From: Desulfovibrio sp. | GTDB lineage: Bacteria > Desulfobacterota > Desulfovibrionia > Desulfovibrionales > Desulfovibrionaceae | Reading direction: 5' to 3' | DNA: 37,804 nucleotides | Assembly (NCBI GenBank): GCA_031272715.1 | Contig: JAISTH010000025.1 | Span: 1 to 37,804 of the forward strand | Shown: piece after piece, positions 5,459 to 20,363 of the stretch | Numbering within the stretch: the stretch's first letter is position 1 | How the letters are laid out: each line of letters starts with the position of its first letter | The notes under the pieces: generated by a model | The model's input: the letters and a program-made list of their open reading frames with translations, nothing else | Database searches by the model: none | What the model was told of the DNA's origin: nothing | Translations under genes and position numbers: made by a program

Positions 5459-5959
5459 ATGTTCGGCATCGGCAGCACTGAACTTCTTGTCATCCTTCTG
5501 GTGGCCCTGGTCGTCCTCGGGCCGTCCAGCCTCGCCAAGGTCTCCCGCATGCTCGGGAAGGCCATGGGGGAGTTCCGCAAGGTCTCCACCGAGTTCCAGC
5601 GCACCCTCAACGCGGAGGTCGCCCAGGAGGAGAAGGCCCGGAGCGAGGGGAAGAAGGCTGCCGGGAGCGGGGGATCGACCGAGGGGGACGCCGGGAAGGC
5701 GGCCCCCAAGGAATCCGTTTCCGCCGCGACCGAAGGGGCGAAGGAGACCTCGGCGCCGTCTTCGGGCAAGGCCGGAGAGGAAAAGAATGACGTGGCCGCC
5801 ACCGGGACGGGAAGCGTCCCGACGCCGCCGCCGGACTCCCCGCTGGCCCAGGCCATCGCCAGGACGCAGGAGGCGGCGCGCTCCGGGGACGGCGACGGCA
5901 CGGCTCCGCCATCGGCCACGACCTCCGGGACGGATCCGGATAAGGCGTCCGAGGCATGA
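5459..5959 (+). CDS. tatB: Sec-independent protein translocase protein TatB
   Basis: TatB is part of the twin-arginine translocase receptor that exports folded proteins across the inner membrane. The first 20 residues, MFGIGSTELLVILLVALVVL, form the single N-terminal membrane span with the conserved glutamate at position 8. Then come the GPSSLAKV hinge, where the proline after glycine favours TatB over TatA, and an amphipathic helix (residues about 24-55). The rest of the 166 residues is a Lys/Ala/Gly/Pro/Ser-rich, probably disordered tail, longer than a minimal TatB. The ATG at 5459 (GGAG 9 bases upstream) is chosen over the in-frame codon at 5435, because only the later start puts the membrane span at the N-terminus. 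The stop overlaps the tatC start (ATGA). Confidence 0.9.
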   Translation: MFGIGSTELLVILLVALVVLGPSSLAKVSRMLGKAMGEFRKVSTEFQRTLNAEVAQEEKARSEGKKAAGSGGSTEGDAGKAAPKESVSAATEGAKETSAPSSGKAGEEKNDVAATGTGSVPTPPPDSPLAQAIARTQEAARSGDGDGTAPPSATTSGTDPDKASEA

Positions 5960-7806
5960 GTTCCACGCCCGAAAACGCCTCCGCCCGGAGATTTGCCACC
6001 GCCCCCTCGCCGTGGGGCGCAGGGACCGGGAACTCCGAACGCGACTCCGCACCCGTGGCGTCCGATGCCGCGTCGCCTTCCGGGACGCCCGATGGGGCGC
6101 ATCCCCCTGCGGAGCATGATGGCACGGGCCTTTCCACGGCTTCCGGGGAGACGTCCCTTGCCGCATCAGAGGATGCGGCCCCTTCCGGAGCGTTCCGGGA
6201 TGCGCCCGACGCCAGGACCATCGCGGATCCGCGAACCGCGAAGGACACGGCCGATGCCAAGGCCAGGATCCCTTCGGACGGAGACACGGCCGCCGATGGC
6301 GGCGCGAACCCCGAAGGCGATGCACCTCGTGTGGACGCCGGGGCCATTGTGGACGAAACGCCTTCCCACGCCACCGGGACCGCCTATGATGGCGACGCCT
6401 CCCAGGACGGCACGGACTCCCCGTCCGAGGACATGACACAAGACGACGGAACCGCCGCGACTGCCGCGGAACCCGATCACGCCCACGACGGCGATGCCGG
6501 GATCCCGGGAAGCCGCAAGCCCATCCCCTACGAGGACTGGGCGGACATGACCTTCGATCCCCCGAATCCTCCCGGCGTCGGCCCCGCCCTTGATGCGGCC
6601 TCCAGCGAAACCCCGCCTCCTCCGGACTCCCCGGACGCCTCGGATGCCCCCTCGGACACGCCCTCGGACGATGCCGGCCACGTCCCCTCCGATAGCCCGC
6701 CCGCCGCAGGCAACGACGACGACGCCAAGGGGGAAACTCCCGGGAAACGCCCCGTCACCCCCTACGAGGACTGGGCGGACATGACCTTCGATCCCCCGAA
6801 TCCTCCCGGCGTCGGCTCCGCCTCCGATGCGGCCCCAGCCGAAACCCAGCCCTCCCAGGACTCCCCGGACGCCTCCGACGCTCCCTCGGACACGCCTTCG
6901 GACGATGGCGGCCATCCTCCCTCCGACAGCCTCCCCGCTCCCGCCGCAGGCGGGTCCGGCGACGACGGAGGAACGGGCGACGCCCAAGCGTCCGACGCCC
7001 CGGTCCCCGCATCCCCTCGCGAACCCGCGACCCAGGACGCCCACGATGCGGACAAGGGCAACATGCCCCTCATGGGACACCTCAACGAACTGCGATTCCG
7101 CCTCGTGCGCTGCTGCATCGCCGCGGGCCTGGGCTTCCTCCTCTGCTGGGCCTTCGTGGACCCCATCTTCGACACCCTCACCGCCCCGCTGCTGAAGGTC
7201 CTGCCCGCGAATTCCACGGCCATCTACACCACCCTGCCCGAAGGCTTCTTCATCCGCATGTTCATCGCCTTCATCGCCGGACTCTTCGTGGCCAGCCCCG
7301 TCATCTTCCACCAGATCTGGTCCTTCATCGCCCCGGGCCTCTACGACGAGGAGAAACGCTTCCTCGTCCCCCTGGCCGCCGTCTCCGCCCTCTTCTTCAT
7401 CGCCGGGGGCTCCTTCTGCTACTTCATCGTCTTCCCGTACGCCTTCGCCTTCTTCGTCAGCTACTCCACGGAAACCATCGTCGTCATGCCCAAGGTGAGC
7501 GACTACCTGGACTTCGTCCTGAAACTCATCCTCGCCTTCGGCCTGATCTTCGAGATGCCCCTCTTCGCCTTCTTCCTCAGCCGCATGGGACTGGTCACCG
7601 CGGACGGGATGCGCTCCTTCCGCCGCTACGCGGTCGTCGGCATCTTCATCGCCGCCGCCATCCTCACCCCCCCGGACGTGGTCTCCCAGCTGCTCATGGC
7701 CGCCCCCATGCTCATCCTCTACGAGGGCAGCATCCTCGTCGCCGCCGCCTTCGGCAGAAAGAAATCCCCGCCCACACCCGAACCCCAGGAGGAGGACAAT
7801 GGCTGA
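5956..7806 (+). CDS. tatC: Sec-independent protein translocase TatC with long repeat-bearing N-terminal extension
   Basis: TatC is the multi-spanning core of the Tat receptor that recognises twin-arginine signal peptides. The classical core occupies residues about 370-616: [42 protein letters not shown] and [20 protein letters not shown], with six predicted membrane spans and normal core length. The unusual part is residues 1-369, an Asp/Ala/Pro/Ser/Thr-rich, probably disordered region with no membrane span. It contains two copies of a 78-residue unit, each beginning [19 protein letters not shown]. Since the TatC N-terminus normally faces the cytoplasm, the extension should be cytoplasmic. 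The start at 5956 overlaps the tatB stop (ATGA). An alternative start is the in-frame ATG at 7063, directly before the core, but synonymous differences between the repeat units argue that the extension is translated. hisB starts inside the last codons. Confidence 0.9.
6526..6960 (+). repeat. 78-codon direct repeat inside tatC
   Basis: Unit one starts at 6526 and unit two at 6760, a period of 234 bases (78 codons). The first 57 bases, encoding [19 protein letters not shown], are identical. In the later stretch [13 protein letters not shown], five third-position differences (TCG/TCC, GAT/GAC, GCC/GCT, and CCC/CCT) are all silent. Outside these blocks the units diverge. In-frame period and silent changes indicate selection on the protein. 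Confidence 0.9.
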
Positions 7807-13806: not shown

Positions 13807-14102
13807 CCGTCACCACAGAAAGGATTGCGCCATGGGGCATCGGGCCCCGAACGGTTCGGCGGCAGTCCCCATGCATATGGGGAGTTCCGGGGCCGGCAAC
13901 GGCCGGATCGATTAGTCCGCCCATTCCGCCCCGGCACGCAGAGCACGGCAGGCCTCGTCAGCGGGAGTGAGAGTACTGCCCAATGGGACTCAAGGTGCAC
14001 CCTTGACATCGTCCGTCCCTTGTGAGAGAATCCCCGCATTGTTGCAGAGCACGATGGCGCCCGGTTCTCGGCACCCGCCCTCGCCATCAAAGGAGTCGTC
14101 CC
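13807..14102 (+). repeat. duplicated inter-gene spacer, second copy
   Basis: Homologous to 11752-12045. The inner palindrome CCCCAT-GCAT-ATGGGG (13867-13882) is kept exactly. The outer stem of the first copy is lost, but a different outer pairing is possible (GGGCCCCGAAC with GTTCCGGGGCC). A short ATG frame with an upstream AAGGA exists in both spacers, but its reading frame is not conserved between them. Confidence 0.8.
14003..14031 (+). promoter_or_regulatory. promoter of ATPase-nuclease copy 3
   Basis: TTGACA (14003-14008), 17 bases, GAGAAT (14026-14031). It is identical to the copy 2 promoter except for the first base of the -10 box, which is G instead of C. Confidence 0.6.
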
Positions 14103-15872
14103 ATGTCCCTCCTCGCCCCCCCGCATCCCCTCCCCCCCATTGAAGATCCACTATTCGATGCCATCCGCGAGGCAAACGAAGTCTACGTGGACAAAACGGG
14201 ATTCATCCAGCGCATGGTCTCGGGGCGCAAGCGCAAGTTTTTCTGCGCCCGTCCGCGCCGATTCGGCAAGTCACTGATGGTCACCACCCTCGAGTCCTTC
14301 TTTCGGGGAGAGAAGGAACTCTTCCAGGGGCTTGCCATCGAGGAGTACATGGAAAGTGATGCATACTCCGAGCATCCGGTCATCTCCCTCGACATGAGCG
14401 CCCCACGGACGCGCATGGGCATCGGCGTCCTGCAGGAAGGACTGATGGCACAACTCGGACTGAACGCCTCAGCAAACGGCGTGTCGCTACGGGGAACGGA
14501 TCCAACGGTGGCCTTCGGCAACCTCATGGAAGACATACACAAAAAAAGTGGAAGACTTGTAATCCTTATTGACGAATATGATGCCCCTCTCTTGAGAGCA
14601 TTTAATAAAGCAGAAATCTATGAAGACGTGCGGGAAGAGCTAAGAGATTTCTACACGATGATAAAACCTTACGACAAACAGAGATTTCTTCGTCTCGTAT
14701 TCATTACTGGGATCAGTAAATTTGCAAAACTTGGCATATTCTCTGGGTTAAATAATGTTACAGATATCTCATTCGAAGACGAATATGCAACAATGTTTGG
14801 ATATACCGAGAAGGAAATCCTTGACAATTTTTCTGCTTACATTGAAATTGTCGCTGAAAAGCTATCACTTACGCCAAAAACTTTAATGGGTAGACTTCGT
14901 GATTACTACGATGGCTATTTTTTCGGAGGGACAGAGAACGTATACAACCCCGTGTCCATAGTTTCCTTTTTTGAAAAAAATAAATTCGCACCTTACTGGA
15001 TCCGTACTGGCAGCCAGGAATTTATCACAAAATACATCTCAGAGAGAAAAGTCACACTCAGTCAATTTGAGAATATTACGATCTCACCTGAAGAGATAAC
15101 AGAGCCTGGTGAAATAACGAGAAACCTTAGCCCTGAATATTTTCTCTACCAGGCAGGATATCTCACAGTTCGTGTCACAGAAGAAAACGGAAAACCTGCC
15201 TACTATTTAACATATCCAAACTATGAAGTTCGTGCCGCAATGCTCTCTCTCATTACCAATAATTTCTTCAAAGTTCGGAATGCCGTTACTGAATTACAAA
15301 GAAAATTTGCCAATCTCCTTTATAAATCTGCATATGCAGAAGCCTTCTTAGAATTTAATGAAGTTCTTGAAAGAATACCATATGATGATGCAGTTGATAG
15401 TGAAGCCGTTGGCAAAGTCGATAGCAAATCTGATGGCAAAGTCGATGGCAAAACTTGTGGCAAAGCCGATGGCAAAGTTGTCAAACTTGGCCAGGCTCAC
15501 TACAGAGAACCTATTCTCGGGTTTCTCTATGGATCAGAATTATTCTTCATAGCAGAGATACATTCAAACAAAGGAAGACCAGACATCGTATTCGATTACG
15601 GTGAGAAGACATTCGTTATCGAACTCAAAACAGCTATCGGAGAGAAAAAATCGTTGAATGAACTTCTCTTTGCCATGAAACAAATGGACGAAGGAAACTA
15701 CACGGGCCGATTCCCAAATCCAGTTGCCGTAGGATTGGTCGTCGATGAGAAGGACCGACTCATCACGCACATATGCATAGAAACTGACGTGTACCACGTC
15801 CAAAAGCGGAAACTGACCCATCTGGGCAAGTTGAACGAACTCGCTGCCGCGGCGGACGGGGAAGGGAAGTAG
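14103..15872 (+). CDS. AAA-ATPase-like / PD-(D/E)XK nuclease family protein, copy 3
   Basis: The 589-residue product is a close paralogue of copy 2, with the same motifs: RPRRFGKS, the Walker B VILIDEYD, FITGISKF, DYYDGYFFGGTENVYNP, GRPDIVF and VIELKTA. It differs mainly near residues 18-45, in the tetrapeptide repeat (seven units against four) and at the C-terminus, where it stops at TAG 15870 with ADGEGK while copy 2 reads on for eight more codons in another frame. AAAGGAG lies 8 bases before the ATG. The middle of the gene (from about 14535) is clearly AT-richer than its first 430 bases and than the flanking genome. It is probably a functional enzyme of a poorly understood family; a role in defence, recombination or selfish-element biology is possible but nothing here decides. 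Confidence 0.88.
   Translation: MSLLAPPHPLPPIEDPLFDAIREANEVYVDKTGFIQRMVSGRKRKFFCARPRRFGKSLMVTTLESFFRGEKELFQGLAIEEYMESDAYSEHPVISLDMSAPRTRMGIGVLQEGLMAQLGLNASANGVSLRGTDPTVAFGNLMEDIHKKSGRLVILIDEYDAPLLRAFNKAEIYEDVREELRDFYTMIKPYDKQRFLRLVFITGISKFAKLGIFSGLNNVTDISFEDEYATMFGYTEKEILDNFSAYIEIVAEKLSLTPKTLMGRLRDYYDGYFFGGTENVYNPVSIVSFFEKNKFAPYWIRTGSQEFITKYISERKVTLSQFENITISPEEITEPGEITRNLSPEYFLYQAGYLTVRVTEENGKPAYYLTYPNYEVRAAMLSLITNNFFKVRNAVTELQRKFANLLYKSAYAEAFLEFNEVLERIPYDDAVDSEAVGKVDSKSDGKVDGKTCGKADGKVVKLGQAHYREPILGFLYGSELFFIAEIHSNKGRPDIVFDYGEKTFVIELKTAIGEKKSLNELLFAMKQMDEGNYTGRFPNPVAVGLVVDEKDRLITHICIETDVYHVQKRKLTHLGKLNELAAAADGEGK
15396..15479 (+). repeat. 12-bp coding tandem repeat in copy 3 (7 units)
   Basis: Seven 12-base units encode DSEA, VGKV, DSKS, DGKV, DGKT, CGKA and DGKV, at exactly the same codon (432) where copy 2 has four units. 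Confidence 0.8.
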
Positions 15873-19427: not shown

Positions 19428-20363
19428 ATGCCGGCAAGAAAGTTCACGGATGCGGACATCGAAGCCGCCGTCCGATCCCTAGGAGAGAAGACGACGCTGC
19501 GATCCGTCAGGGCGTTGCTGGGAGGCGGAGATCTCGGCAGGATAGGCGCGGTGATTCGAAGGGTCCGCAGCGAGGGCGATCCGTCCTTGGCGATGCCGGC
19601 CAGCCCCGCGACCACCGTCGAAGTCGCGGTACCGGCGACGTCGACGTCGCCGCTGATGTCCCTCCTTTTCAGGTGCACCCGCGAGGTGGCGGGAGCGGCC
19701 AACAACCTTGCATCCATACAGGCCGACATCGCCAAGGCGCGCGCCATCGTCACCGAGGAAGTGGGGCGGCGCGAATGGGACGGAACGGAAGGCTCCGACC
19801 AGGTCGCCGTCAGGCTGGTCGCGGCCGAGACCCGGGCGGACAATCTCGAGAAGGAGCTCTCGACGGCCCGGGAGGAGCTTGCCGGCCTGCGGGGCGAGAA
19901 CCGCGTGCTGCGGGAGCAGCTGGGACTGGCGTTGACGCGCGCCGGCGCACCGGCTTCCTTCGTCGCCCCTCAGGGACGGGCGGCGGCCAAGCCCGCATCG
20001 GCCTCCAAGCCGGCGTCCAAGTCCGCCCCCGGCTCCAAGCAGGCGCCCAAACCCGCCGCATCCAAACCGGCGACCAAATCCGCCCCGGCCGCCAAGGCGA
20101 CGTCCAAGCCCGCCTCCAAGTCGGCGGCCAAGCCCAGGCCCGCCGCGCCGGCGAAGGACAAGGCCGCGTCCGGCGACAAGACGCCGGCGCCCCACGCCTC
20201 CGGGAAGGGCCACGGCCGGCTGACGCCCCCGGAAACGGTGGAGCGGATCATCGCCCTGTCCAGGCAGGGGATGGGCAACACCCAGATCTCCAAGGAGACC
20301 GGGGTGCCCAGGAGCACGTGCAGCGACATCATCAGGAAGGCCTCGACCGGCAAGGCCAAGTGA
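19428..20363 (+). CDS. putative DNA-binding protein: KfrA-like N-terminus, coiled coil, histone-H1-like linker, C-terminal HTH
   Basis: The 311-residue product seems to carry two DNA-binding ends. Residues about 5-47 (DADIEAAVRSLGEK...TLRSVRALLGGGDLGRIGAV) look like the N-terminal winged-helix region of KfrA-type proteins. Residues about 120-170 are predicted coiled coil (ETRADNLEKELSTAREELAG). Residues about 187-250 are a Lys/Ala/Pro/Ser tract with repeated KPAS, KSAP and KPAA units, like the tail of histone H1. Residues about 265-305 form a helix-turn-helix of the resolvase/transposase type (VERIIALSRQGMGNTQISKE). Possible roles are nucleoid organisation, DNA bridging or transcription control; none is proven. 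The start is fixed by GGAGAG and the promoter at 19361. It is monocistronic and ended by the terminator at 20441. Confidence 0.75.
   Translation: MPARKFTDADIEAAVRSLGEKTTLRSVRALLGGGDLGRIGAVIRRVRSEGDPSLAMPASPATTVEVAVPATSTSPLMSLLFRCTREVAGAANNLASIQADIAKARAIVTEEVGRREWDGTEGSDQVAVRLVAAETRADNLEKELSTAREELAGLRGENRVLREQLGLALTRAGAPASFVAPQGRAAAKPASASKPASKSAPGSKQAPKPAASKPATKSAPAAKATSKPASKSAAKPRPAAPAKDKAASGDKTPAPHASGKGHGRLTPPETVERIIALSRQGMGNTQISKETGVPRSTCSDIIRKASTGKAK

Follow-up and report, generated by a model that had tools for sequence, protein, structure and literature searches.

Results

The tatC locus

The DNA analysed here, called the window, is a stretch of 37,804 nucleotides from a Desulfovibrio sp. 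assembly (contig JAISTH010000025.1, forward strand). Its tatC gene lies at 5956-7806 on the + strand, encodes 616 residues and starts at an ATGA overlap with tatB, that is, with a gap of -4, just as the first-pass annotation had read it. The features of the locus are as follows.

5459..5959, +, tatB, 166 residues, with a long tail; PF02416 match at residues 4-53
5825..5884, +, TatB-tail island PPPDSPLAQAIARTQEAARS, a form of the island common in family TatB tails (pattern instances, translation)
5956..7062, +, TatC N-terminal arm, 369 residues, acidic, Pro/Ala/Ser-rich, of low predicted order
6517..6750, +, 78-residue repeat unit 1
6526..6582, +, 19-residue motif copy 1, DNA identical to copy 2
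6634..6672, +, 13-residue block copy 1
6751..6984, +, 78-residue repeat unit 2
6760..6816, +, 19-residue motif copy 2
6868..6906, +, 13-residue block copy 2, with four silent codon differences from copy 1
7063..7803, +, TatC core with H375, E378, F457, Y463 and E466 (Pfam, E. coli alignment)

By profile score and signal-peptide residues the protein is a TatC. It matches the full TIGR00945 profile (1-215 of 215) over residues 372-589 with 219.3 bits, above the curated cut-off of 132.7, and the Pfam TatC domain (PF00902) covers residues 375-584 only, leaving about 369 extra residues before the core, in agreement with the extension of about 370 residues originally described. Alignment to E. coli TatC places H375, E378, F457, Y463 and E466 at the positions of H12, E15, F94, Y100 and E103, a list of signal-peptide residues taken from the accessible part of PMC13323110, and these five positions are invariant across 51 aligned TatC sequences. 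Compared with TatC as described by PF00902 and TIGR00945, the window protein has the same core, the same position after tatB and the same five residues, and it adds an acidic N-terminal arm of 369 residues. This arm contains 73 acidic and 17 basic residues, which bears out the acidity noted at first reading; up to the start of the core profile there are 374 residues with a charge of -56. It is the longest arm of 143 family loci, and it shares the features by which we recognise the family arm, namely a length of at least 40 residues, net acidity and a start overlapping tatB. By homology to TatC of known structure, the protein would have a transmembrane core, for which AlphaFold2 predicts the core helices, and a cytoplasmic N-terminus.

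Predicted structure and position of the arm

In the AlphaFold2 model of the window TatC, blocks of 38-54 pLDDT extend over residues 1-360 and no secondary structure appears before residue 372, while in the model of P0010 residues 1-92 fall below 50 and one short helix precedes the Trp island described below. With no confident predicted structure, the models are consistent with the long disordered arm that had been proposed. The last arm residue lies six positions ahead of the conserved His, which helps to bind twin-arginine signal peptides. In the E. coli alignment, residue 6 of E. coli TatC is already paired with the residue preceding Met370; according to the accessible part of PMC13323110, residues 6-236 of E. 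coli TatC are modelled by cryo-EM, and signal-peptide recognition is ascribed to H12 and E15 among others. By alignment, then, the arm ends approximately where the E. coli chain becomes ordered, just before H12 and E15. Since the end of the arm adjoins the equivalents of these two residues, and since each TatBC complex holds three TatC copies according to the part of the literature available, we infer that the arm stands at the mouth of the receptor, with three arms per complex if all TatC copies are armed.

The acidic arm across the family

TatC was found in 188 of the 199 genomes drawn from the family. We collected 231 loci, some chosen by similarity to the query and others mainly to cover genera, and located the TatC core by profile in 229. 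The start was taken as the one nearest to the tatB stop, or as the first ATG where tatB was not found. Three loci (L028, L081 and L085) had no usable start, and with identical cores counted once 143 family sequences remained, including 54 named contigs whose core was not found in the family genomes examined and whose family was assigned from similarity and title.

Whether relatives keep the extension had been posed as a check, and an arm of at least 40 residues is present in 131 of these 143 distinct loci, with a median arm of 119.5 residues (142 sequences). The net charge is -5 or lower in 129 loci, the four-base overlap with tatB occurs in 110, and no TatB was found in 12. Five of the 12 short-armed loci have no TatB found, so that their start is uncertain. 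When only GTDB-family genomes are counted, the corresponding figures are 80/91 for arm length, 81/91 for charge and 68/91 for the overlap. In contrast, arms of at least 40 residues occur in only 1 of 30 phylum outgroups (L189, in a stretch masked with N; median 11 residues), these being the best-scoring loci of the search rather than a random draw. The other comparison sets gave 1 of 11 among other named deltaproteobacteria outside the family (L111, 65 residues, basic) and 1 of 4 among same-order outgroups (L209, 49 residues, net charge -12). The long acidic arm is a trait across the sampled genera of the family and not a quirk of one genome. As a single control protein, SecY of the same genus is not lengthened, with open frames of 438-495 in the 16 genomes, out of 17, that gave a match; one additional piece lies at a contig end.

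We also inspected the sequence upstream of the core in eight more phylum loci, of which five have frames over 350 codons and three have shorter ones. A long acidic arm is present in none of them. The upstream frame of L236 is basic, with a likely start near the core; L237 has at most 41 basic residues upstream and L241 has 62; L238 gives a partial core match only, and L239 has 34 residues and a split core; 18, 34 and 32 residues precede the core in L240, L242 and L243, respectively.

Translation and constraint of the arm

Among 124 locus pairs with 86-99% core identity and arms of at least 60 residues, we took 29 pairs without shared members. The arm dN/dS is below 1 in all 27 computable pairs, ranging from 0.11 to 0.83, and the pooled pN/pS is 0.54 for arms against 0.09 for cores; some arm pairs are distant (dS of 1.5 or more), which makes their alignment uncertain. 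These ratios in relatives indicate that the arm is read in frame and is under weak purifying selection, and they support the earlier view of the arm as real coding sequence.

The conserved Met before the core (Met370 or Met373) was considered as an internal start. Of the 143 family sequences, 136 have a Met within eight residues upstream of the core; in the outgroup comparison, which covers slightly different positions (-6 to -3) and counts family member L105 as an outgroup, 16 of 46 have one. All four order outgroups also keep a Met there, however, so that its conservation has another possible cause. Ribosome-site pairing at the internal Met exceeds that at arbitrary arm positions (p 1e-9), but this positive signal vanished under synonymous shuffles, which pair more strongly (-4.6 against -3.9, 134 sequences), and the tatB-overlapping start also pairs more strongly than the internal Met (median -5.4 against -3.7). 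The Asp/Glu-rich stretch before the core is the likely cause of the spurious signal.

The 78-residue repeat

The two 78-residue units headed by a 19-residue motif were recovered as first described: the DNA repeat in the arm spans 226 nt at 80% identity, and the motif stands near the start of each unit, its copies 78 residues apart. The first-pass annotation had also claimed five silent differences in the 13-residue block, of which we count four, and had read selection on a translated sequence from the repeat. Over the 77 codons compared between units, there are 20 silent differences at 58 sites and 32 replacements at 173 sites (Fisher p 0.017), a modest contrast in the direction claimed, but one antisense frame of the unit gives a similar ratio. 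The repeat by itself is therefore no proof of the reading frame, and it is the dN/dS of relatives that provides it. The headline motif lies inside a 58-nt run identical between the units (6525-6582 = 6759-6816), so that no contrast of silent and replacement changes exists there and the motif carries no information on selection. If the motif changed at the silent rate seen elsewhere in the unit, the absence of any silent change in it would have a P of about 0.0008, which points to motif blocks that were probably homogenised by local conversion, or copied more recently or patchily. No match was found for the repeat as a phage-derived or RNA element.

For comparisons among arms we used 77 representatives, defined by core identity below 85% and an arm of at least 40 residues. 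The window arm holds 25 repeated 6-mers, and at least three repeated 6-mers occur in 8 of the 77 representative arms against 0.08 expected from shuffles. Elsewhere in the window, a long ORF with a 12-base-period repeat (VDSKSDGKVDGK...) lies at 14022-15872 and may, judged by eye, encode an AAA-ATPase with a nuclease-like end; a 311-residue ORF at 19428-20363 has a Lys/Pro/Ala-rich repeat linker followed by a small end that by eye resembles a DNA-binding domain.

The window motif and the Trp island of sister lineages

The 10-residue motif of the window arm, which had been suggested as a feature to look for in relatives and in other proteins of the genome, was found in the window protein only. 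A collection of 5.77 billion proteins gave no relative with a match among 4401 candidates (proteins of 0.55-1.75 times the length, sharing exact 5-residue words), and no copy was found elsewhere in its own 80%-complete genome. Sister lineages carry another Trp island, [FL]SGPEWxP[DE], which the window arm does not contain; it has YEDWADMTF twice and a third Trp near the arm N-terminus. On a single FastTree of the cores, read without branch supports, the window is placed among lineages carrying the Trp island, and the doubled YEDWADMTF may be a replacement of it.

The pattern [GM][PL].W.[PS][DE] gives 11 instances in 10 of the 77 representative arms, twice in L054. Because the instances were found by pattern, identity at the fixed positions is inflated; at the non-fixed positions -5, -4, -1 and +1 the pairwise identity is 0.49, 0.67, 0.51 and 0.38, against 0.13 in the flanks. 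Over the 19 instances found in the full set of distinct arms, four different codons are used for Gly and four for the second Pro, three for Ser and two for Asp. Glu, by contrast, is written GAA in 16 of 16 cases and the first Pro is written CCG in 15 of 16, so that these two columns show little or no silent change. Since most arm sequence changes fast and 67 of the 77 representatives have no Trp island, no single motif is needed family-wide.

Other recurrent strings were seen by eye, such as LPDYEPDGSD in g39 and DDPSL in the arms of several genera (L224, where it occurs twice, L160-L163, L145 and L150); DDPSL was marked by pattern as well. We also tried a general rule of an aromatic after an acid with a hydrophobic residue at +3, and rejected it: across the 77 arms, acids precede aromatics 71 times against 71.0 expected, and the remainder is weak, with a hydrophobic residue at +3 in 23 cases against 15.6 expected (reached by 40 of 1000 shuffles) and both together in 14 against 8.0 (31 of 1000). 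The pattern P[DEQNKG][WY].P[DE] is seen 9 times against 0.07 expected; because it was chosen with the arms already read, and from related sequences, this significance is not independent.

A TatB-tail motif in TatC arms

Many family TatB tails carry a short island resembling PPxGSPLAxALAxTxAEA, with 49 non-identical instances by pattern among 129 tails. A profile built from these instances, from which L013 and L080 were deliberately excluded, matches the TatC arms of these two loci with 30.3 and 32.9 bits, against 7.3 for the best of 20 shuffled sets. L080 is named Desulfovibrio piger, and L013 agrees with L074 (D. piger ATCC 29098) in frame length, core position and start positions; as both belong to one lineage, the copying of the island is probably one event. 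Across 20 codons, 52 of 60 and 49 of 60 nucleotides agree between the arm copy and the TatB copy, and identity drops in the flanking sequence. Within 18 codons, L013 shows three silent codon differences and one amino-acid difference between its arm and TatB copies, and L080 shows four and two. A TatB-tail motif inside the TatC arms of two D. piger-lineage genomes suggests a link to TatB.

The TatB tail resembles the TatC arm in being of low complexity, with a short conserved island in many members, an island that the D. piger-lineage arms share. The tails are Ala/Lys-rich and near-neutral (median tail charge -3), whereas the arms are strongly acidic (median -23). The arm of L139 scores 11.7 bits with the TatB-tail profile, above the shuffles, but as a single case it supports no claim here. 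The arms of g39 (PPRDLSEAVDRASKE) were tried as a moved TatB motif and rejected, with a best score of 1.6 bits, inside the shuffled range. In the window itself, a 20-nt stretch at 90% identity is common to the TatB tail (5823-5842) and the TatC arm (6614-6633) and codes PPPDSP in both; either exchange or coincidence could account for it. In L031, a likely tatA of 66 residues with a short tail (1444-1644) lies on another contig than tatBC.

Discussion

We put at about an even chance that the TatC arm acts as a flexible tether on the receptor side, rooted at the signal-peptide site and displaying short docking motifs. The gene would make a full-length TatC whose long acidic N-terminal arm we infer to be cytoplasmic and disordered in the cell, and its negative charge, together with short aromatic or helical islands, would hold a basic or groove-bearing partner near the mouth of the receptor. 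Candidate partners would be TatA or TatB, the signal region of a substrate, or a substrate chaperone. Arms would lengthen through local duplication, and islands would be gained, copied and replaced between lineages, the doubled 10-residue motif of the window being the version of that genome. The docking element proposed in the first-pass annotation survives in part. A real, in-frame, family-wide arm rooted at the signal-peptide site, with a Trp island conserved in some relatives, speaks for it, but the window motif was found in none of the relatives compared and its DNA identity is uninformative on selection. As for the substrates, chaperones or TatB named there as possible partners, nothing picks one; the motif shared in the D. 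piger lineage suggests a link to TatB.

The reading nearest to this one, with which it overlaps, is that of a generic acidic brush, in which the arm, by its size and charge, holds the mouth of the receptor free or draws in basic signal regions without specific docking, and only composition is selected. Acidity is indeed among the most constant features of the arm (129/143), it is highest over the 30 residues that adjoin the core (net acid per residue 0.25 against 0.16, 77 representatives), and most of the arm sequence turns over, as the pooled pN/pS of 0.54 shows. However, composition alone does not account for an island that is conserved at the protein level despite changes in some of its codons, or for a TatB-tail motif copied into the arm, and we consider a brush rather less likely than not. 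An intramolecular gate, in which the arm turns back onto its own TatC or TatBC to block or modulate the signal-peptide site as long as no substrate is present, would suit an arm whose end adjoins the signal-peptide residues. The two AlphaFold2 monomer models, with low arm confidence and almost no secondary structure, argue weakly against it, their core confidence being modest and TatB absent from them, and we hold a gate to be improbable. We give equally little credence to neutral lengthening, by which slippage and duplication in high-GC DNA would have added a harmless arm like many low-complexity tails: internal repeats are over-represented (8/77 arms) and the sequence turns over fast, but across the family the arm itself, its acidity and the overlapping start are retained, and some members conserve an island. 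That the arm is absent or only partly made, translation beginning at the internal Met, is very improbable given that dN/dS is below 1 upstream of it.

Returning to the tether, we would extend it, with considerably more reserve, to the speculation that the short aromatic and helical motifs of TatC arms and TatB tails can stand in for one another in recruiting a common cytoplasmic partner. Lineages would then rewire the receptor by copying such motifs, exchanging them for others or shifting them from one of these neighbouring genes to the other.

Lineage-specific inserts in TatC are known in N. salsuginis and M. xanthus, according to the accessible part of PMC13323110, and they resemble the arm in being an extra segment on a standard core, disordered in N. 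salsuginis. These inserts are periplasmic, whereas the arm of the window TatC is N-terminal and, by homology, cytoplasmic. In TatC of genera g5 and g14 (L158, L160-L163, L167-L171) the core matches in two pieces within one frame, as is expected of a lineage-specific insert around core residues 30-75, which perhaps lies in a periplasmic loop like the inserts in the available text of PMC13323110. No mention of such a TatC arm was found in the literature searched, which consisted mostly of papers open without subscription; in the accessible text of a TatC diversity survey (PMC3827258) neither 'extension' nor 'N-terminus' is used, and 'N-terminal' appears a single time, within a reference.

What would such an arm mean for these bacteria? 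TatC is a core component of the Tat machinery, by which folded proteins are exported, and the family examined here consists of sulfate reducers. A family-wide arm at the signal-peptide site, with an island conserved in some members, would add a recruitment or sorting layer in Tat-using bacteria. TatC is usually treated as a compact receptor, and these bacteria use Tat for hydrogenases and similar enzymes. The natural arm variants offer a way to study the route by which TatA, chaperones or substrates come to the receptor.
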